Assembly (NCBI RefSeq): GCF_001623405.1 | Contig: NZ_LUHG01000104.1 | Coordinates: forward strand, 1-64,000 | DNA length: 64,000 nucleotides | Direction: 5' to 3' | Source: Hydrotalea flava | GTDB taxonomy: Bacteria; Bacteroidota; Bacteroidia; Chitinophagales; Chitinophagaceae | In this document: positions 3,807 through 52,925 of the stretch, one piece after another | How positions within the stretch are numbered: position 1 is the first letter of the stretch | How the letters are laid out: every line of letters begins with the position of its first letter | Made by a program: the position numbers and the translations under genes | Notes under the pieces: generated by a model | Databases searched by the model: none | Told to the model about the DNA's origin: nothing | Seen by the model: only the letters and a program-made list of their open reading frames with translations

Positions 3807-4394
3807 TTATTGGATGCCATAACTTTCTAAAAGTGCCGTGTATTGCGGGCTGTTTCTGCGGCGAATACTTTCTTTACCTACCAATTCCTGAATTTTCATA
3901 AACCCGTCTAAAATAGCTTCTGGCCTGGGCGGGCAACCCGGCACATATACATCAACCGGTATAATCTGATCAATACCCTGTAACACACTGTAGGTATCAA
4001 AAATACCACCACTGCTGGCACAGGCACCTACACTCAATACCCAACGGGGTTCAGCCATTTGCAAATATACCTGCCTTAAAACAGGCGCCATTTTTTTGGC
4101 AATGGTACCCATTACCATTAGTAAGTCGCACTGACGGGGAGAAAAACCAACCCTTTCTGCACCAAAACGAGCTAAATCGTAGTGTGCACCCATTGTAGCC
4201 ATAAACTCAATACCACAACAAGAAGTGGCAAATGGCAATGGCCACAAAGAGTTTTTTCGTGCTAATCCCACTACTTCACTTAATTTGGTGGTGAAAAAGC
4301 CTTCTCCATTATATCCCTGCGGAGCCTCGCCCATAATAATAGATTTGGCGGGTTCTGCTGGTTTGGGATGAATATTAAAACGTACCGGACGCAT
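3807..4394 (-). CDS. nuoB: NADH-quinone oxidoreductase subunit B
   Basis: The PSST-type complex I subunit holding the terminal 4Fe-4S cluster N2, which donates electrons to quinone. In the 195-aa sequence the N2 ligands are the adjacent C59-C60 (TSCCGIEF), C125 (GACASSGG) and C154 (PGCPPRPEA). The core matches the family; the first 35 residues are a variable tail. It is separated from nuoA by about 166 bases, unusually wide for this operon, with a hairpin in the gap (see 4528-4548). Confidence 0.97.
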   Translation of the reverse strand: MRPVRFNIHPKPAEPAKSIIMGEAPQGYNGEGFFTTKLSEVVGLARKNSLWPLPFATSCCGIEFMATMGAHYDLARFGAERVGFSPRQCDLLMVMGTIAKKMAPVLRQVYLQMAEPRWVLSVGACASSGGIFDTYSVLQGIDQIIPVDVYVPGCPPRPEAILDGFMKIQELVGKESIRRRNSPQYTALLESYGIQ

Positions 4395-4527
4395 AGAATA
4401 ACATTTAATTTGCTTGATAAAATAAGGTTTTCAGGATTGTAAAACATCACTTACCACATCCTGCTAATTTGTTACACTCCTGCCATTTTTCAAAGAAAGT
4501 AAGCACAAATTGCACCATATATAACAT

Positions 4528-4548
4528 TTCAACTTCTTTTAAGTTGAA
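4528..4548 (-). other. hairpin in the nuoA-nuoB gap
   Basis: An 8-bp perfect inverted repeat (TTCAACTT / AAGTTGAA) with a 5-base loop lies between nuoA and nuoB. It has no U-tract on the minus strand, so it is not a standard terminator. It may be an mRNA processing or stability element that adjusts nuoA relative to the later genes. Function is inferred only from position. Confidence 0.35.
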
Positions 4549-4560
4549 GATTCCTTCCCA

Positions 4561-4965
4561 TTAATCTTCCCAATTCAATGCTCCCTTTTTAATGATATAC
4601 ACAAAACCAATGAGGAATAAAGCCACAAACAATACAATTTCCCAAAAGCCGGCCCATCCCAGAAATTTAAAGTTTACTGCATAGGGATAAAAGAAAATTA
4701 CTTCTACATCAAACAGTACAAACAAAATAGCCACTAAAAAATACTTTACTGCCATGGGTTGGCGGGCATTGCCATGGCTAGCTATACCACTGGAGAAATT
4801 TTCCAGTTTATCACTCGTTTTTCTTTTTGGACCTACCCAGGCAGACAATCCAATCATGGTAGCCACAAAACCTATGGCGAAAATGAGTTGAATGCCTATC
4901 GGGAAATAATTTTCAGCAGTATTGTTAAGCTGATTTAGTTGAAGAAGTGTACTAAAACCTATCAT
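4561..4965 (-). CDS. nuoA: NADH-quinone oxidoreductase subunit A
   Basis: Small membrane subunit of complex I, near the quinone channel. The 134-aa protein has three predicted membrane helices (around residues 20-42, 77-97 and 103-125) and the family's VEVIFFYPYA segment in the loop before helix 3. It is the first gene of the visible nuoA-F operon, and a TATTTTTG promoter-like box lies upstream at 4985-4992. Confidence 0.95.
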   Translation of the reverse strand: MIGFSTLLQLNQLNNTAENYFPIGIQLIFAIGFVATMIGLSAWVGPKRKTSDKLENFSSGIASHGNARQPMAVKYFLVAILFVLFDVEVIFFYPYAVNFKFLGWAGFWEIVLFVALFLIGFVYIIKKGALNWED

Positions 4966-4984
4966 AACATTCTTGAATGAGATG

Positions 4985-4992
4985 CAAAAATA
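4985..4992 (-). promoter_or_regulatory. -7 box for the nuo operon
   Basis: On the minus strand this reads TATTTTTG, matching the Bacteroidota sigma-factor -7 consensus TAnnTTTG, 19 bases before the nuoA start. No clear TTG -33 element is visible at the right spacing, so support is moderate. Confidence 0.45.
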
Positions 4993-5170
4993 AGGCAGTC
5001 TGTTTATAAACCCTTACTATTCTTTTGTTGTTTTTGATGAATTCAGCAATTTATAATGCCACAAGTATTTTCAAAATTGTTTTAATATTACCCGCTCTCA
5101 AAAAAATTAAAGTCAATAGCGTAATAATCTACTAAATTATGAAATTGGAGTTTCCAGGCTTGCTTCAATA

Positions 5171-5205
5171 AAAAAGTTGCCACTTTTTACAGCGGCAACT
5201 TTTTT
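5171..5205 (-). terminator. intrinsic terminator after the TPR gene
   Basis: The stem AAGTTGCC / GGCAACTT is flanked by A-runs on one side and T-runs on the other, so it can end transcription in both directions. It lies 31 bases past the stop of the minus-strand TPR gene and separates that operon from nuo. Confidence 0.8.
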
Positions 5206-5235
5206 ATTATATTTAAAAATGTATTTCCTGACGAA

Positions 5236-6969
5236 TTAATTCTTCGTTGCACCCTTTGTACCGGTGCTGTCAGTCTGTGGTTGTTTCCCTTCCATCAGCT
5301 TTTGCTTTTTAATGTTGCCTTCAATTGCGCCTTTAATTTTTAACATATCCGGATCATTGGGTATTAATTCTAAAATTTTGTTACAGATATCTAATGCCTT
5401 TTCATAATCTTTTGCCCTGTCATTGTAATAACCCATCATGTAATAATAGTCGATGATGATGAAGCGTTGATTTTTTACGCTGTCTTTCATCAAATAATCA
5501 ATCTGTTGTTGCAGTGCCGGAATGGCAATACCCGGATTAGAAGTGGTATCCAGCGCTTTGGCTGCCATTACATTAAAATAATAACCTTGTGGCTTATCGG
5601 GAAATGCTTTGATATAATTAGCCGCCACATCCATTACTTTGGGATAATCAGCTGCCTGATAAGCTACATTGGAAATATTGTAATAATCATATTCACTCCA
5701 GATACCTTTCAATGCTTGTGCCTGCAATAACCAGTCTAACTGTGCTTTATAGTTTTTAGCTTTCGCCATTAAATCTGCAGCCTGCGTCATGTAGTTGATT
5801 TTATTCACTTTAGAAGTATCTGACTGAATGGCTGATTGGATGTACTTAACAGCAACGTCGGCATTTTCAGGGAATTTAGAGAAAATTTTTACTGCCAGTT
5901 CATAATCAGCAGGCTTAATTTTATCGGTAGGTTCTAAAGTAAAATAGCGTTCAATATTTTGTTTGGCCTGTAATGAATCACCCAATTTATTATAGTTGTA
6001 GGCATACAATAAATTCAATCCGGGTAATTTGTCTGTACCACCTAAAGAGGTTTCTATTTCTTTTTCTTTAGCCAATGATTCCTGGTATTTACCTGCCTGA
6101 TACAGGTAATCTGCCAGATAGAAATCGTTTTGCGGATCTTTATCTGCATATTTTATGAATTTGTCCAAATTGGCTTTGGCCATATCTACATTTCTGTTCT
6201 TATAATATTCAAACAACGCCAGATAAGTATCGGGGAAAGAAGGATCTGCTTCCATTGCTTTTCCAAAAGCCGGCATGAAAGAGTCTTCATTATTCTGGCT
6301 CAGGTATACCATTCCAATTCTGTAATAAGCCAACACATTTTTGGGATCAATGGTGGTAGCCTGCTCAAATGCTTTTACAGCTTCACCTCCATTTTCGCCA
6401 CCTAATTTCAGATAGCAGATACCCATGTACACATACACCATAGAATTTTTAGGATCTAATGCAGCGGCTTGTTTTAATTTTTCAATACCATAGTTAGGAT
6501 CACCAATTTTGCTGCCTCCATCGGCATTGGCACGGCCTATGGCTTCTAAAATTTCAACACTGGGCTCGCCTTTATGTCTGCCTTTGGTGGGCGTTGTAGC
6601 TGTAATGGCCTGTTCAAACTTTTGTTTGGCAGCATTGATATCGCCACCTTCCAGCATGTCTATATGGCCTATGCCTACCCATATTAATGGCTCATTTACA
6701 CCATCGGTTAAAGCTTTCTGATACACAGCCTTCGCCGCATCCATTTGGGCTTTGGTTACTTCATTGCCGCCAATTAAAGCCTGACCGTACCAATAAATGG
6801 CTTGTACATCTTTGGGCTTATCGTCGTAATTTTTCTTCAAAATATTAATGGCAGATTGAACTTTGAATGACGAGTTTAAGTCGTTAATCCCATCAGCAAT
6901 CGACTGGGCCATCAATCCATTTACAGCCAGAAAGGCTGCCACTAGCAAAGTAATTGTTTTCTTCATCAT
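5236..6969 (-). CDS. secreted TPR-repeat protein
   Basis: A 577-aa protein with a clear Sec signal peptide (MMKKTITLLVAAFLAVNGLMAQS), followed almost entirely by tetratricopeptide repeats, for instance the blocks starting near MVYVYMGICYLKLG and LAYYRIGMVYLSQN. Such proteins are scaffolds for protein-protein contacts in the periplasm or outer membrane. It follows the PstS-like lipoprotein by 23 bases and shares its operon, suggesting a common envelope task. The partner is unknown. The downstream terminator at 5171-5205 ends the operon. Confidence 0.85.
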   Translation of the reverse strand: MMKKTITLLVAAFLAVNGLMAQSIADGINDLNSSFKVQSAINILKKNYDDKPKDVQAIYWYGQALIGGNEVTKAQMDAAKAVYQKALTDGVNEPLIWVGIGHIDMLEGGDINAAKQKFEQAITATTPTKGRHKGEPSVEILEAIGRANADGGSKIGDPNYGIEKLKQAAALDPKNSMVYVYMGICYLKLGGENGGEAVKAFEQATTIDPKNVLAYYRIGMVYLSQNNEDSFMPAFGKAMEADPSFPDTYLALFEYYKNRNVDMAKANLDKFIKYADKDPQNDFYLADYLYQAGKYQESLAKEKEIETSLGGTDKLPGLNLLYAYNYNKLGDSLQAKQNIERYFTLEPTDKIKPADYELAVKIFSKFPENADVAVKYIQSAIQSDTSKVNKINYMTQAADLMAKAKNYKAQLDWLLQAQALKGIWSEYDYYNISNVAYQAADYPKVMDVAANYIKAFPDKPQGYYFNVMAAKALDTTSNPGIAIPALQQQIDYLMKDSVKNQRFIIIDYYYMMGYYNDRAKDYEKALDICNKILELIPNDPDMLKIKGAIEGNIKKQKLMEGKQPQTDSTGTKGATKN

Positions 6970-11108: not shown

Positions 11109-11507
11109 ATGAAGCCAATCATTGCCCTCGTTTTAGTGATGCTGTCATTTCAAGCCTGCACCTATAAAACAAATCCGGTTAAAACCCCACCACGCCCTGC
11201 TGCACCACCTGCACCGACTGCATTTATTGTGGTGGATGGCATGGGCAATATTCTTACACCAAAAGACAGATTTCCCCCCACTATTGGCCAGCAGGTAAAT
11301 TATACCCAAATTGCCCGTGCATTTACGCCCAATCAACGCAAAAATCTCCTTTATCGTTTTAACAGTATCCCGCCAAAAATCATTTATGTAGCTCCAGCCT
11401 ATACCCTACATTCCCTAAAAGGTACTTATTGCATTTACAAAAAAAAGTTTTGGTACTGGCAACACAGCAATGGACTATTTTATTTAGACGAAACCTATTA
11501 CCGATAA
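11109..11507 (+). CDS. hypothetical lipoprotein
   Basis: A 132-aa protein with a lipobox (LSFQAC, Cys at 17) followed by a Pro-rich linker (about residues 24-37) and a C-terminal part rich in Tyr and Trp (WYWQHSNGLFYLDETYYR). I do not recognise a family. It lies alone on the plus strand between a minus-strand gene and ssb. Confidence 0.55.
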   Translation: MKPIIALVLVMLSFQACTYKTNPVKTPPRPAAPPAPTAFIVVDGMGNILTPKDRFPPTIGQQVNYTQIARAFTPNQRKNLLYRFNSIPPKIIYVAPAYTLHSLKGTYCIYKKKFWYWQHSNGLFYLDETYYR

Positions 11508-43765: not shown

Positions 43766-44227
43766 TTATTTTAACTTCAATTTCTGTTTATCCTTATTAT
43801 TGATAAACACATCACCATTCTTTATATCATCTGCGAGTTGCTGAATAGTTTTAGTTTCAAATAATGCTATCAACTGTTCTTTTATTATTTTATATTTCGA
43901 ATGCATAGGGCAAGGTTGTGTCTCAGAACATTTATCCAAACCTAACACACATTTATCCAGCACTTCATCTTCTCCCATTGCCTTAAGGATGGTGCGAACC
44001 GGCAGTTTTTTCGCTTTTTCAGTCATAAAAAATCCGCCGTTAGGTCCACTGACAGATCGGATGATTTTATTGTCCTTTCTAAGTGCCTGTAATATTTTAG
44101 CGGTAAATGATTGAGGCGCATCAATGGCCTTAGAAATTTCTCCAATTACGATTTTGTTTTCCACTGTGCCTTTTTGTGCAACGTATATCGTTGCTCTTAA
44201 TGCATATTCTGTTGCTTTTGAAAACAT
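43766..44227 (-). CDS. Rrf2-family regulator, NsrR-like
   Basis: A 153-aa winged-helix regulator from the ATG at 44227, where the conserved start FSKATEYALRATIYVAQ begins. Three cysteines C93, C100 and C106 (spacing Cx6Cx5C, in DKCVLGLDKCSETQPCPMH) fit the Fe-S ligand pattern of NsrR/IscR-type Rrf2 proteins, which sense NO or cluster state. It lies divergent from the unusual NO reductase / putative NO dismutase gene, so NO-responsive control of that gene is the natural inference. The fold and cysteines are seen; the ligand sensed is inferred. Confidence 0.88.
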   Translation of the reverse strand: MFSKATEYALRATIYVAQKGTVENKIVIGEISKAIDAPQSFTAKILQALRKDNKIIRSVSGPNGGFFMTEKAKKLPVRTILKAMGEDEVLDKCVLGLDKCSETQPCPMHSKYKIIKEQLIALFETKTIQQLADDIKNGDVFINNKDKQKLKLK

Positions 44228-44388
44228 GAAGTTGATTTTAAAAAGAAAATTACATTTTATTTTAGTAACTGCATAAAGTTGTGGTATCAATCCATCTTGC
44301 AACTTGCAAATGAATCTTTTGTTCCTACTAATTTTAGTTCAATCACTAGAGTAATAGATGGAAATATTCAAAATAAAATTTTTTTTGT

Positions 44389-44402
44389 AAATACATGTAT
44401 TT
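44389..44402. promoter_or_regulatory. perfect palindrome AAATACATGTATTT
   Basis: A 14-bp perfect inverted repeat in the Rrf2/nod control region, about 160 bases upstream of the Rrf2 start. Its ATGTATTT half-sites resemble half-sites described for NsrR, though in the opposite arrangement. Candidate operator. Confidence 0.4.
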
Positions 44403-44805
44403 TTTACAATGTATTAAATTTTTGGTATAATCAAATTTTTCTGAGAATGAATAGGAAGGTGCCTTGCTGTGTAATTTTTTAGATACCCCCAAGTTATGGT
44501 CAATCATCCTGAGAATAGATTCAGTTATCAATTGTTTTAGTTCCTTAAAATCAAAAACAAAGCCCGGTATCAGAATATACTCGTCTTTGGGTGAATTCCT
44601 TGAAACAGTAACCTACAATTTGTAAGAAAAGCAGTGCATATTTTTGCAGACGCCTGTATAATCATCAATGGCATGTTCCAGTGCGAAAAAAAATATTACA
44701 AATTTTATTAGTTGTAACATAATATATACCTGCCTGAGATACCAGTCCTCAAACACCGGATAGTTTTTAGTCGGCGCTTTTGAAAATAATAAATTCGAAT
44801 AATTT

Positions 44806-44821
44806 AGGACAAATTTATCCT
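44806..44821 (+). promoter_or_regulatory. candidate operator AGGACAAATTTATCCT
   Basis: A 16-bp inverted repeat with one mismatched pair, placed 7 bases upstream of the -7 box of the putative nod gene. A bound Rrf2 dimer here would block the promoter. Identification rests on symmetry and position only. Confidence 0.45.
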
Positions 44822-44853: not shown

Positions 44854-47196
44854 ATGGCAAAAAATAATTTCATCAGATACCTGCTTAATCCCAAAAACTG
44901 GTGGCTGCCATTACTAGTAATTTTTGTAATTAGTATAGCAGGCGTAACGATGATTGGGCTACATACTTACACAGAAGCACCCCCTATTCCAAACTATGTT
45001 TCAGCCAAGAATGAAACTGTTTTTTCAAAGGAGGATGTGTTAAAAGGTCAGGCATTATTTCAAAAATATGCACTGATGGAATATGGCAGTATGTTTGGTG
45101 ATGGTGCCAACCGTGGCCCAGACTATACAGCAGAAGCCTTACATTATGTTTCACAATACATGAATGACTATTATCTATCCCGGTTGAAAGCCGGAGCAAA
45201 TAGCAATTTGCTTAAAAAGGGGGTGGCAGAACAGGTAAAAGCAGAAATTAAAAGCAATCATTATAGTAAAGACAACAACAGTGTAACACTTTCCCATGCA
45301 CAAGTTTTTGCAATCAGAGAATTAATAAAATATTACCACCAAAAATTCACAAACTCCTCTTCCTCCGGAGCATTTAAACCAGATGGTTACATTTCTGATG
45401 AAAATGAAATAAAGTCATTAACAGCCTTTTTCTTTTGGGGTTCATGGGTTTGTGGCGTAGAAAGGCCGGGAGAACATTACAGCTATACACATAACTGGCC
45501 TTACGATCCTGCAGCAGGAAATACACCGAGTGCTGCGATTATTTTATGGAGTATTATCGGTTCATTGGGGTTGATATTTGGGTTGGGCATCGTATTGTTT
45601 TATCATGGCAAGCTGGATAAGCTGGGTGATGATGTTTATACAAAAAAGGCAGAGCCTTTTATGACAAAAGGTGATATACAAAAGTTTCAACCGGATGCCA
45701 TTCAAAAAAATACCTACAAATTTTTTTATGTTGCCATAATACTTTTTGCTGTACAGGTTTTGGCGGGTATTTTAACCGTACATGATTTTTTAGGTTTTAT
45801 AAATTTTTTCGGATTCAATATTTCCGAAGCATTGCCAATTACTGTAACGAGAAGTTGGCATGTACAATTATCCATTCTATGGATATCAACCTGCTGGATT
45901 GGCGCGTCATTTTTTATGATGTCATTTGTATCACCCAATCAATCAAAAAAACAGGTTACACTTATTAATACTATTTTCTGGCTTACGGTATTGCTGGTGG
46001 CAGGTTCCTTTTTCGGTATGTTGCTTGGGCCGAAAGGTCTTGCCGGGAAAAACTGGTATTTGCTAGGAAACCAGGGATGGGAATATGTTGAACTTGGAAA
46101 ATTATGGCAGATTATACTGGGTGTCGTATTCATTATCTGGGCAGTAACCATTTACAAAGGAATTAAACCTACTATGAAATTAAAGCAGCCATGGGCTTTA
46201 CCTAACTGGTTAGTATATGCCACATTCAGTATAATTTTATTATTGATCTCCGGCTTTATTGCAACACCCAAAACCAATTTTGTGATTGCTGATTTCTGGA
46301 GATGGATGGTAGTGCACATGTGGGCCGAAGCTTTTTTTGAAGTGTTCACCACAGTGCTGATTGGGTACTTTATGGTATTGATGGGATTGGTAAGCAGGCA
46401 GGCTGTGATTCGTGTTATCTATTTAGCAACCTTATTATTTCTTGGTTCTGGTTTACTGGGTATTTCACATAATTTTTACTGGAATGCTAAGCCGGTTTTC
46501 ACAATGGCTCTTGGCTCAGTGTTTTCAACATTGCAGGTAATACCTTTAGTGCTGCTCACATTAGAAGCATGGCGTTTCAGCAAACTCCCAAAACTGCTGG
46601 AAACGAATAATCGGATAAATGGAGATTTGAATAAATGTTTTGGATTTTCTGAAGTGTTCCTGTTTTTGGTAGCTGTTAATTTCTGGAATTTTTTTGGAGC
46701 AGGTGTTCTGGGATTTATTATCAATCTTCCTATTGCCAATTATTATGAGCATGGAACTTATTTAACCGTTAATCATGGCCATGCTGCATTAATGGGTGTT
46801 TATGGCAATCTTGCAGTAGCTGCTGTTTTATTTTGTTGCCAGTTATTATTTAAGGCCGATTGGTGGAAACCAAAACTTATTAAAACAATATTCTGGTCTA
46901 TTAATATCGGTTTATCACTAATGGTATTACTTGATTTATTTCCTGCAGGTATTTACCAGTTTAAAACAGTAACAGAACAAGGACTATGGTATGCCCGTAG
47001 CAGTGCATTTATAGAAAGCAGTGGTTTTCAAGCGCTCACTTGGCTGCGTATTGTTGGTGGTTCCATTTTTACTCTAGGCGGCGTGATACCACTTGTTTGG
47101 TTTATAACCAGTAGAAGAAAAGGGTTAAAAAAAGATGAAAATAATAATACAATACAATCAAAAACTGATGAAAATATTGCAACGATATTGGCTTAA
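44854..47196 (+). CDS. nod: putative nitric oxide dismutase (unusual qNOR-type)
   Basis: A 780-aa heme-copper-oxidase-superfamily membrane protein with the single-chain qNOR layout: N-terminal helix (16-38), cytochrome-c-like extracytoplasmic domain, then about 13 helices. Kept: H336 (RSWHVQL), H641 and H643 (VNHGHAALMG) as heme ligands, H488 and E492 (VVHMWAEAFFE), and H539. Changed: standard GTFHHLY reads GISHNFYW, so the second FeB His is N540. Standard FSALEVVPL reads FSTLQVIPL, so the catalytic-site Glu is Q561. At the quinol site H310 is kept, but the partner Glu is G314 and the C-terminal Asp (usual GD in WxRxxGD) is G736. These changes match the group proposed to dismutate 2 NO to N2 and O2 (Methylomirabilis, and a Bacteroidota case). 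Activity is inferred; a divergent NO reductase is the alternative. Confidence 0.8.
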   Translation: MAKNNFIRYLLNPKNWWLPLLVIFVISIAGVTMIGLHTYTEAPPIPNYVSAKNETVFSKEDVLKGQALFQKYALMEYGSMFGDGANRGPDYTAEALHYVSQYMNDYYLSRLKAGANSNLLKKGVAEQVKAEIKSNHYSKDNNSVTLSHAQVFAIRELIKYYHQKFTNSSSSGAFKPDGYISDENEIKSLTAFFFWGSWVCGVERPGEHYSYTHNWPYDPAAGNTPSAAIILWSIIGSLGLIFGLGIVLFYHGKLDKLGDDVYTKKAEPFMTKGDIQKFQPDAIQKNTYKFFYVAIILFAVQVLAGILTVHDFLGFINFFGFNISEALPITVTRSWHVQLSILWISTCWIGASFFMMSFVSPNQSKKQVTLINTIFWLTVLLVAGSFFGMLLGPKGLAGKNWYLLGNQGWEYVELGKLWQIILGVVFIIWAVTIYKGIKPTMKLKQPWALPNWLVYATFSIILLLISGFIATPKTNFVIADFWRWMVVHMWAEAFFEVFTTVLIGYFMVLMGLVSRQAVIRVIYLATLLFLGSGLLGISHNFYWNAKPVFTMALGSVFSTLQVIPLVLLTLEAWRFSKLPKLLETNNRINGDLNKCFGFSEVFLFLVAVNFWNFFGAGVLGFIINLPIANYYEHGTYLTVNHGHAALMGVYGNLAVAAVLFCCQLLFKADWWKPKLIKTIFWSINIGLSLMVLLDLFPAGIYQFKTVTEQGLWYARSSAFIESSGFQALTWLRIVGGSIFTLGGVIPLVWFITSRRKGLKKDENNNTIQSKTDENIATILA

Positions 47197-47278: not shown

Positions 47279-47650
47279 ATGAAAACAAGAACTGGTTATA
47301 AGCCACTGTTGTATTCCTGCTCTGGCTGTTCCAGTGCTGCGCAAATGGCAAATTATATTGCTGTTCAGCTTGACAGGATGAATATTGCAGAAATGTCATG
47401 CATTGCCGGAGTTGGAGGTAACGTAAAGAATCTTGTACGTACAGCTACTTCCGGAAGAAAAATTATTGTAATAGATGGTTCCCAACTGGCATGCTCAAAA
47501 GCATGTTTGGGTAATCATTCAGTAACGCCTGATGTCCACATCGATTTGTCCTGCATGGGCGTTCCCAAAAAGTTACATGAAGATTTTGATATGAAAGATG
47601 CTAACGAAATTTTAAAACAAATTGAAATTCTCATCCATAAACAACAGTAA
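47279..47650 (+). CDS. DGC-type putative zinc-binding protein
   Basis: A 123-aa cytoplasmic protein of the DGC-domain family with six conserved-looking cysteines: C14 and C17 (YSCSGC), C41 (MSCIAGVGG), C72 and C76 (ACSKAC) and C92 (DLSCMG). At the motif that names the family (Asp-Gly-Cys) it reads D66-G67-S68. Such proteins often lie beside nitrogen-oxide or redox genes; a metal-binding or cluster-handling helper of the upstream oxidoreductase is a reasonable guess. It follows the putative nod gene by 82 bases on the same strand. Confidence 0.82.
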   Translation: MKTRTGYKPLLYSCSGCSSAAQMANYIAVQLDRMNIAEMSCIAGVGGNVKNLVRTATSGRKIIVIDGSQLACSKACLGNHSVTPDVHIDLSCMGVPKKLHEDFDMKDANEILKQIEILIHKQQ

Positions 47651-48666: not shown

Positions 48667-50244
48667 TTATTTATACTGTGGATATAAACCTGCAGCTAAA
48701 TCTGTCATTTTCTTTAAACTTTCATCATTCAATTGGCCTTTTTTAAATTCGGCTAATACATCGGGTAATTTTGTTTCCATTTCTAAAAGGAAATGGGCTT
48801 CAAATGCCTTCACCTTGCTTACAGCCACATCACGCAATAAACCCTGAGTACCCAAATAAATAATGGCTACCTGTTTTTCAACACTCATTGGGCTATACTG
48901 TGGTTGTTTTAGTATTTCTACGTTACGAGCACCTTTATCAATTACCGATTTTGTAGCAGCATCCAAATCACCACCAAATTTAGAAAAGGCTTCCAATTCG
49001 CGGTACAAAGCTTGGTCTAATTTTAAGGTACCGGCCACTTTTTTCATGGATTTAATTTGGGCATTACCACCTACCCTACTTACAGAAATACCTACGTTAA
49101 TAGCAGGGCGAATACCGGCGTTAAACAAGTTACCTTCTAAGAAAATCTGACCATCAGTAATCGAAATAACATTGGTTGGAATATAAGCAGATACATCACC
49201 AGCCTGTGTTTCAATAATGGGTAATGCAGTTAAGCTACCACCGCCTTTTACTAAGTGTTTAATAGACTCAGGTAGGTCGTTCATATTTTTTGCCACATCA
49301 TCGTTAGAAATAACCTTAGCAGCTCTTTCTAATAAACGGCTGTGTAAATAGAATACATCACCTGGATAAGCCTCACGACCTGGAGGTCTGCGCAACAATA
49401 ACGATACTTCACGGTAAGCTACAGCTTGTTTAGATAAATCATCATAAATAATTAAAGCAGGCCTTCCAGTATCGCGGAAAAATTCACCAATAGCAGCACC
49501 AGCAAATGGAGCATAGAACTGTAATGGAGCCGGATCAGAAGCAGAAGCAGATACAATGGTTGTATAAGCCATTGCACCATTATCTTCCAATGTTTTCATA
49601 ACACCGGCAACAGTAGAAGCTTTTTGGCCTACAGCTACATAAATACAATATACCGGGCTTCCGGCTTCATAAAATTCTTTTTGATTGATGATGGTATCAA
49701 CAGCAATAGCAGTTTTACCGGTTTGGCGGTCGCCAATAATCAATTCACGCTGGCCACGACCAATCGGGATCATGGCATCAATCGCTTTAATACCGGTTTG
49801 TAAAGGTTCTTTTACAGGTTCGCGGAAAATAACGCCTGGGGCTTTACGTTCCAGTGGCATTTCATACAATTCTCCTTTAATAGGGCCTTTGCCATCAATA
49901 GGTTCTCCAAGGGTATTTAATACACGGCCCACCATTCCATCGCCCACTTTAATGGAGGCAATTTGTCCGGTTCTTTTTACTTTGGCACCTTCTTTAATAC
50001 CTTCGCTTTCACCCATTAATACCACCCCTACATTATCTTCTTCCAGGTTAAGTGCAATGGCTTTTACGCCATTATCAAATTCTACCAGTTCACCTGAACG
50101 CACATTGTTAAGGCCATAAACACGGGCAATACCATCACCCACTTGTAAAACAGTACCCACTTCTTCCAATTCAGCCGATACATTGAAATTACTCAACTGT
50201 TGCCTGAGTATGGCTGAAATTTCATCTGGTTTAATGTCTACCAT
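48667..50244 (-). CDS. atpA: ATP synthase F1 subunit alpha
   Basis: Regulatory nucleotide-binding subunit of the F1 motor. The 525-aa protein has the P-loop [11 protein letters not shown] (about 170-180) and the [18 protein letters not shown] block. It is the last gene of the operon here and is followed by a strong terminator. The expected next gene, atpG, is not in this window. Confidence 0.98.
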
Positions 50245-50291
50245 ATTGTTGATTTTATGCTATGATTATAATTGTAAAAAGTTAATGCAGT

Positions 50292-50855
50292 TTATCGTAT
50301 TTGTTGCACATATAAATTTTGCTGAAACTGTTTTTTGATATCTTTTAAATCGCGTAATACACTGGCATCCACCAAATTGTTTTGAAAACTCAATACAAAC
50401 CCACCAATTAAACTTTTATCTACTTTAGTTTCCAACTGTATTTTATCAAATCCACGTGCTGTTTTTACTTTGGTTTCAATAGCATTTTTTAAACTGTCTG
50501 AAACCGGAACCGCCGTGGTTAATGTAACAATATGAATGCCTTTTAATTCGTTATAATGATCAATAAAAGCATTGGCTATTTCGGGTAATACATTTTCTCT
50601 GCCTTTTTTAACCAACAGTTCAAGATACAATGCCGTTAATGCGCTGATAGATTTACCGGTAACAGCTTTAATGATGGCATTCTTTTTATCGGAAGTAACT
50701 ACCGGACTTTCCAATAAATTTACAAATTCCCTGCTGGCCTTACAAACAGCTTGCAGGTATTGCATATCCGCCATAATTTTTTCCAGCTCATTTCTTTCAA
50801 TGCTGATGTCAATCAGGCTTTTGGCATACCGGTTTGCTAAACGGGGATTATTCAT
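50292..50855 (-). CDS. atpH: ATP synthase F1 subunit delta
   Basis: Stator subunit linking F1 alpha to the b subunit. About 187 aa from the ATG at 50855 (NNPRLANRYAKSLIDIS); a TTG two codons earlier is possible. The C-terminal KVDKSLIGGFVLSFQNNLVDASV is the conserved OSCP signature. Confidence 0.95.
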   Translation of the reverse strand: MNNPRLANRYAKSLIDISIERNELEKIMADMQYLQAVCKASREFVNLLESPVVTSDKKNAIIKAVTGKSISALTALYLELLVKKGRENVLPEIANAFIDHYNELKGIHIVTLTTAVPVSDSLKNAIETKVKTARGFDKIQLETKVDKSLIGGFVLSFQNNLVDASVLRDLKDIKKQFQQNLYVQQIR

Positions 50856-50886
50856 TATCAATAATTATAATTACCTTGAAATAGAA

Positions 50887-51381
50887 TTAATTTAATGGAA
50901 CAGCATTCACCAATGTTTGAATATATTTTTCCTGTTCTGCTTTACTGCTGAGTTCTCTGTGTAATATTTTTTCACTTACTTCAATTACCAAAGCGCCCAC
51001 CTGATTTTTTACATCAGTTAAAGCAGCATTCTTTTGTTGCAAAATAGCCGTTTGTGCATCGGCAACAATACGTTCATATTCCTGTTTGGCTTTCTCTTTG
51101 GCTTCGGCAATCATTTTATCTGATTGTTCTTTGGCTTCTTTTAAAATCACAGCACGCTCTTCTCTTGCTTTTGCCATTAATGCTTCATTCTCATTTTTCA
51201 ACGCAGCCATTTCTGCTTTTATTTTTTCTGCAGAAGCAATAGCATTGGCAATACCGATTTCTCTTTCTTTCAAAGTGAAAAGAATGGGCTTCCAGGCATA
51301 TTTACGCAGCACAATTAAAACAACAATAAAGGCAATAAATGTCCAGAATATTAAACCTAAAGCGGGTGTTAACAATTGCAT
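50887..51381 (-). CDS. atpF: ATP synthase F0 subunit b
   Basis: Peripheral stalk subunit. 164 aa from the ATG at 51381 (QLLTPALGLIFWTFIAF), giving one N-terminal membrane helix (about 8-28) and then a long charged coiled coil (AEKIKAEMAALKNENEALMAKAREERA). The longer frame from 51432 adds residues not expected in the family. Confidence 0.95.
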   Translation of the reverse strand: MQLLTPALGLIFWTFIAFIVVLIVLRKYAWKPILFTLKEREIGIANAIASAEKIKAEMAALKNENEALMAKAREERAVILKEAKEQSDKMIAEAKEKAKQEYERIVADAQTAILQQKNAALTDVKNQVGALVIEVSEKILHRELSSKAEQEKYIQTLVNAVPLN

Positions 51382-51518
51382 ATATTCAATTTCTATTTTA
51401 TAACAAAAAACTATTTTTTCAGAAAGCAACAATCATCTGTATACTGTTTTAGAATCAACTGCATTCGCAGCCCTTTGCTTTGAATGCAGTTGAGATAATG
51501 TTTCTTTTACAAGAACAA

Positions 51519-52905
<1,387 letters not shown>

Positions 52906-52925
52906 AAATTTGTTCAAATTTGCGG

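Follow-up and report, generated by a model that had tools for sequence, protein, structure and literature searches.

The gene at positions 44854–47196 (+) of the window, the 64,000-nucleotide stretch of Hydrotalea flava DNA analyzed here, raises the question of whether its product is a quinol-dependent nitric oxide reductase (qNOR) or one of the related proteins proposed to be NO dismutases (Nods). The ORF starts with ATG, is complete, and has no internal stop codons. Its 780-aa product matched the Pfam models COX1 and NorB_cytochrome_c-like, and no NCBIfam model at an E-value of 0.01. It also matched solved qNORs, the best being 3AYF from Geobacillus stearothermophilus (E-value 8e−159), with 36% amino acid identity over almost the full length. 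In the part of Ettwig 2012 (PMC3413370) covered here, the changes that define Nods are the replacement of one FeB-site His by Asn and of a nearby Glu by Gln, together with an altered quinol site, given there without a residue-by-residue list.

We mapped these residues with a phmmer alignment to 3AYF and a MAFFT alignment of 88 rows, comprising 81 Nod-type proteins (the window protein and 80 of 288 relatives from one genome scan) and seven qNORs (five from Chitinophagaceae, 3AYF, and 6QQ5). At the FeB site, H559 and H508 of 3AYF are kept as H539 and H488 in the window protein, and H560 is replaced by N540; the catalytic Glu, E581, is replaced by Q561. The heme ligands H355, H651, and H653 are kept as H336, H641, and H643, as are E512 (E492 in the window protein), E516, and E429. 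At the quinol site, E332 and D746 are replaced by G314 and G736, and the third residue, H328, is kept as H310, so that one of the three remains. The preliminary description had named H539, N540, Q561, G314, G736, H336, H641, H643, H488, and E492, all correctly according to the alignments to 3AYF, in which N540 and Q561 stayed opposite the qNOR His and Glu; the retention of H310 is an addition to that list. N540 and Q561 occurred in all 81 Nod-type rows and in none of the seven qNORs, every one of which had H, E, E, D, and H at the positions of H560, E581, E332, D746, and H328, respectively; therefore, the changes in the window protein are not due to chance. H488, H539, E492, E496, and the heme b/b3 ligands H336, H641, and H643 were likewise invariant in the 81 rows. 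The quinol-site positions varied among these rows, with H (64) or N (17) at the H328 position, G (57), N (17), D (6), or H (1) at the E332 position, and G (62), A (17), K (1), or a gap (1) at the D746 position, the K and the gap belonging to a protein with a frameshifted C-terminus (L047) and one that ends at a contig end (L044). The 17 rows with N at the H328 position formed one group, with Ala at 736. Among the 20 nod-positive genomes of the family, 17 were aligned separately, all sharing N540 and Q561; G143 and G220 are covered by loci L043 and L044, and the nod fragment of G142 ends short of the N540/Q561 site.

In a quick IQ-TREE phylogeny of 92 rows, from which L123 was left out, the 81 Nods and 11 qNORs fell on either side of one branch (SH-aLRT support of 100), with a program warning that the qNOR branches are long. 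The window protein grouped with its nearest Nods, from metagenome-assembled genomes (MAGs) of Ferruginibacter (91%), and its clade also held proteins of Algoriphagus and Cecembia, two genera with published nods. The Nod group in this tree was set by the relatives from the genome scan, and the likeness to the Nods of Methylomirabilis, HdN1, and Muricauda is by description; no record of these three was among the 80 loci of 288 relatives from the single scan. An AlphaFold2 model of the window protein, built with an input of 36 sequences (mean pLDDT of 75.9, pTM of 0.79), aligned with 3AYF over 723 residues (Z of 37.9, rmsd of 2.7). In this model, residues 310–321, 323–331, and 541–546, in the FeB and quinol pockets, had a pLDDT below 50; the match therefore covers the overall fold, and the pocket geometry was left uninterpreted. 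In summary, 3AYF and the window protein have in common the fold, the heme ligands, H488, E492, E496 (window numbering), and, by inspection, a cytochrome c-like N-terminal domain without CxxCH, whereas they differ in H560→N, E581→Q, E332→G, and D746→G and lie on opposite sides of the tree. By the published residue criteria, the window protein is of the Nod type and not a classical qNOR, and in the present tree the Nod group is the sister of the quinol-dependent NO reductases. The Nod-like placement in the preliminary description was thus borne out by the residues, the tree, and the relatives.

Its assignment of the host to Chitinophagaceae was also right: the nearest Nods are from Ferruginibacter, and the relatives within the family include Flavihumibacter sp. 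ZG627 and Flavisolibacter ginsengisoli. Its mention of a single Nod in a marine flavobacterium, however, understates the spread of nod, which is in print for Chitinophagaceae and other Bacteroidota. As far as the sources were covered, nod was reported in MAGs of Sediminibacterium (Chitinophagaceae) and Algoriphagus (Ruff 2023, PMC10264387) and in 66 of 1,362 MAGs, mostly from Pseudomonadota and next from Bacteroidota, the Bacteroidota nods being from lake enrichments (PMC13386854). These Bacteroidota nods share the phylum with the window genome, and one shares its family. The window nod is therefore a further member of a known putative Nod kind, within a family for which it has already been reported. 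Our 80 loci were mostly from Bacteroidota, with one each labeled Armatimonadota, Chlorobiota, Acidobacteriota, and Planctomycetota, these four being MAGs with the phylum taken from the label and the binning as deposited. Within the Chitinophagaceae, nod was found in 20 of 294 genomes from 13 genera, a patchy distribution that suggests both transfer and loss. Isolates with Nod-type proteins include Flavihumibacter solisilvae, Flavisolibacter ginsengisoli DSM 18119, Cecembia rubra DSM 28057, and Algoriphagus alkaliphilus DSM 22703. A plasmid search gave 318 records, all below 60% identity (33–36% in the best 25 of the 318), and a viral scan gave one partial relative. This last sequence, on a 231-kb viral contig (L123, 4968–6578), is a Nod-like ORF from whose center about 190 residues are missing, among them the counterparts of H488, H539, N540, and Q561, and is either a broken copy or an assembly artifact.

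The nearest relatives carry, in divergent orientation to nod, genes for a NorC-like cytochrome c and a NorB-like protein of 472 aa; beyond this pair come a PTPS-like gene and an Rrf2 gene. A blastn comparison of the window with L031–L035 and L079 revealed a 100-bp scar (44698–44797) where L079 and L031 have 1.8 kb with the NorB-like and NorC-like genes. Beside the scar lies a remnant of the PTPS-like gene (44265–44696, −) with internal stop codons, detected by tblastn (E-value 1e−28) with the L031 protein, which matches Pfam PTPS. A NorB-like gene was divergent from nod and within 2.5 kb of it in 11 of the 81 loci; over the whole of the fetched flanks, such a gene was present in 17. Because the sister branch (L031, L032, and L079) and outer branches (L033–L035, L038, and L057) keep the NorBC-like pair, its loss in the window lineage would be the simplest reading. 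The nod gene is intact in the window even though this pair is lost and the PTPS-like gene is broken. A COX1 search of the window genome gave four proteins over the cut-off, which by reading are Nod, one CtaD-like protein, and two cbb3-like proteins; no NOR-type gene other than nod was found in this genome. Mutual exclusion between nod and other NOR genes was considered and proved wrong, as matches to a Nod query had missed the NorB-like family, which was found with a query of its own. NorB-like proteins (472 aa in L031, at 4160–5930, −; 442–474 aa in L129–L134) are encoded together with the NorC-like cytochrome c. In one alignment to 4XYD, the NorB-like protein conserved neither the first His of the FeB site nor its Glu, and the second heme-b His was Met. 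In L129–L132, the NorB-like and NorC-like pair is about 10 kb away from nosZ and is accompanied by Rrf2 and apparent hemerythrin-type genes. The NorB-like protein possibly belongs to one of the newer NOR classes; in the part of PMC12569097 covered, the NOR classes omit Nod, and Bacteroidota are mostly N2O “terminators.”

Divergent from nod in the window is a gene for an Rrf2-family regulator (43766–44227, −), which matches Pfam Rrf2, contains Cys-x6-Cys-x5-Cys, and is 86% identical to that of L031; its start was placed at an ATG by homology, and the listed ORF reaches 44302 from a TTG. Among the loci with at least 1.5 kb of upstream sequence, drawn from the window and the 80 of 288 relatives, 43 of 69 had an Rrf2 gene within 2.5 kb upstream. 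The regulator scored 32.3 bits against the curated NsrR equivalog, below the cut-off of 182; it passed the Rrf2 superfamily model alone (77.7 against 73.3). A palindrome, GGACAAATTTATCC (44807–44820), a candidate operator, has its first base 47 bp 5′ of the nod start. Across 77 loci, it was found with at most one mismatch in 15 and at most two in 24, mostly at about −45 to −60, against 0 and 0.2, respectively, expected from base shuffles; these counts are not independent, since the motif itself was taken from the window and its closest relatives and many of the loci are closely related. One other exact copy was present in the genome, within an ORF, and there was no genome-wide enrichment (four places with at most one mismatch, against nine for the reversed control). 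What argues for the palindrome as a possible operator is the conservation of its position ahead of nod. The sequence departs from the NsrR consensus given in the part of PMC1274295 covered, gATGyAT-N5-ATrCATc; NsrR was described near nod in Cecembia (PMC13386854, in the portion used). The Rrf2 gene and the conserved palindrome before nod together suggest dedicated control.

On the other side of nod, 83 bp 3′ of it, lies a gene for a DGC-domain protein (47279–47650, +; Pfam DGC), which is possibly co-transcribed with nod; this family occurred in 18 of the 81 loci, usually directly downstream of nod. Farther downstream in the window (48667–52917, −), an F-type ATP synthase operon was recognized by eye, an ordinary setting. 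Elsewhere, a gene near nod in L031 (10936–12867) and its relatives (22 of 81 loci) encodes a conserved product of about 600 aa that has no Pfam match, and in L035 a stretch resembling the candidate nod operator (11222–11257) precedes this gene.

Regarding other nitrogen-oxide genes, the window genome carries nosZ, apparently with its usual neighbors; no NirK was over the cut-off (best score of 40.9 bits against 296.3), and there was no match to NrfA. Within the family, NirK was over the cut-off in 2 of the 20 nod-positive genomes, and five more had a member of a weaker NirK-like group (170–212 bits). The NirS profile PF02239 matched none of the 294 genomes and no control either, which makes this profile uninformative. 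In the family, nosZ accompanied nod in 19 of 20 nod-positive genomes, against 134 of 274 nod-negative genomes (P = 3e−5); the count of 20 omits a partial match at a contig edge (G245), with which the figure becomes 20 of 21. The difference also appeared by genus (13 of 13 nod-positive against 54 of 88 nod-negative; P = 0.004), and 39 of 47 named nod-positive genomes, chosen from the 80 for spread, had nosZ. All of these tests, and the comparison with congeners that follows, treat genomes as independent of kinship. Among nod-negative congeners, of which at least 22 were found, 14 of 22 carried nosZ against 19 of 20 nod-positive genomes (P = 0.02), an excess that remains over the congeners. Because nod-negative congeners often carry nosZ, lineage or habitat accounts for part of the link, as a pattern at the genus level. 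Its use as evidence of N2O formation is weakened accordingly, and the link proves neither an N2O product nor its absence.

We lean toward the reading that the window protein is a putative Nod that removes NO by dismutation. With one FeB-site His replaced by Asn, the catalytic Glu by Gln, and two of the three quinol-site residues lost, the enzyme probably would not draw electrons from quinol; two NO molecules would bind the modified heme b3–FeB site and be rearranged to N2 and O2. The neighboring Rrf2 regulator may switch nod on, and the likeliest role would be the removal of incoming NO in a host with nosZ and aerobic oxidases, for which the searches gave neither NirK nor NrfA; the presumed O2 product could be used by the host oxidases. 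Whereas the residues, the tree, the fold match, the synteny, the missing NorBC-like pair, and the other genes are results of the analysis, we infer that quinol is no longer used, and likewise infer the reaction, the response to NO, and the role. The putative Nod reading draws on the diagnostic residues described in the portion of Ettwig 2012 covered, which all 81 Nod-type rows have and none of the seven qNORs has; on the fully supported split in the tree and the Algoriphagus and Cecembia relatives in the same clade; on the 3AYF-like fold, the Rrf2 gene with its palindrome, and an intact nod beside a lost NorBC-like pair; and on the lack of any other NOR-type COX1 protein among those seen in the genome. 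Against it stand the retained H310, the company of nosZ, an enzyme that would be of use after one forming N2O, and the opposing results on Nods mentioned in PMC13386854, the covered part of which also says that the enzyme has not yet been isolated, as well as an Rrf2 score below the NsrR cut-off, a palindrome unlike the NsrR consensus, and the fact that no O2-consuming monooxygenase was recognized next to nod.

In the main rival reading, the protein would reduce NO to N2O, using another electron donor or a quinol site remodeled around H310, with NosZ taking the N2O to N2. We consider this possible but doubtful: the kept H310, the frequency of nosZ in nod-positive genomes, and the finding of no NOR-type gene besides nod in the genome would all fit, whereas the invariant His→Asn and Glu→Gln changes fall at residues fixed in qNORs, and the nosZ link is shared in part with nod-negative congeners. 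The replacement of the qNOR catalytic residues could also point to a degenerate or non-catalytic relative that binds or senses NO, but this is improbable given that the heme ligands, H488, H539, E492, E496, and N540/Q561 are invariant in 81 rows and that nod is intact beside a decayed neighbor. Hardly any weight can be given to an ordinary qNOR with odd residues caused by misalignment or sequencing error; despite the 36% identity to 3AYF over almost the full length, this is refuted because all 81 rows carry these changes and the protein lies apart from the qNORs in the tree with support of 100. Classical qNOR identity is ruled out by N540/Q561, the loss of two of the three quinol-site residues, and the tree position.

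As described in the covered part of PMC3413370, the Nods of Ca. Methylomirabilis oxyfera, HdN1, and Muricauda ruestringensis resemble the window protein in the His→Asn and Glu→Gln changes, a quinol site that is altered (in the window protein at two of three residues), and a qNOR-like length and fold. Against these descriptions, the window protein has no methane context and has an adjoining Rrf2 gene; it also keeps H328, a residue that the covered description does not list individually. Compared with the Bacteroidota nods of PMC10264387 and PMC13386854, the window genome, which goes unmentioned in the portions covered, has the NorBC-like pair deleted beside nod. In the open-licence literature, as far as its text was covered, neither this deletion nor the palindrome nor such nosZ counts came up. 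We tentatively propose, as an idea less probable than the putative Nod reading itself, that a dedicated, NO-responsive module of Rrf2, operator, and nod may allow Bacteroidota that are otherwise aerobic and lack their own nitrite reductase to detoxify outside NO and gain O2 for their oxidases, with NosZ handling outside N2O. With no NOR-type gene found besides nod, the window genome offers a useful natural case, and the isolate genomes with Nod-type proteins make a knock-out and a labeled-NO assay conceivable. If the module proposal is true, the gain of oxygen from NO would be widespread among heterotrophs and not a specialty of methanotrophs.
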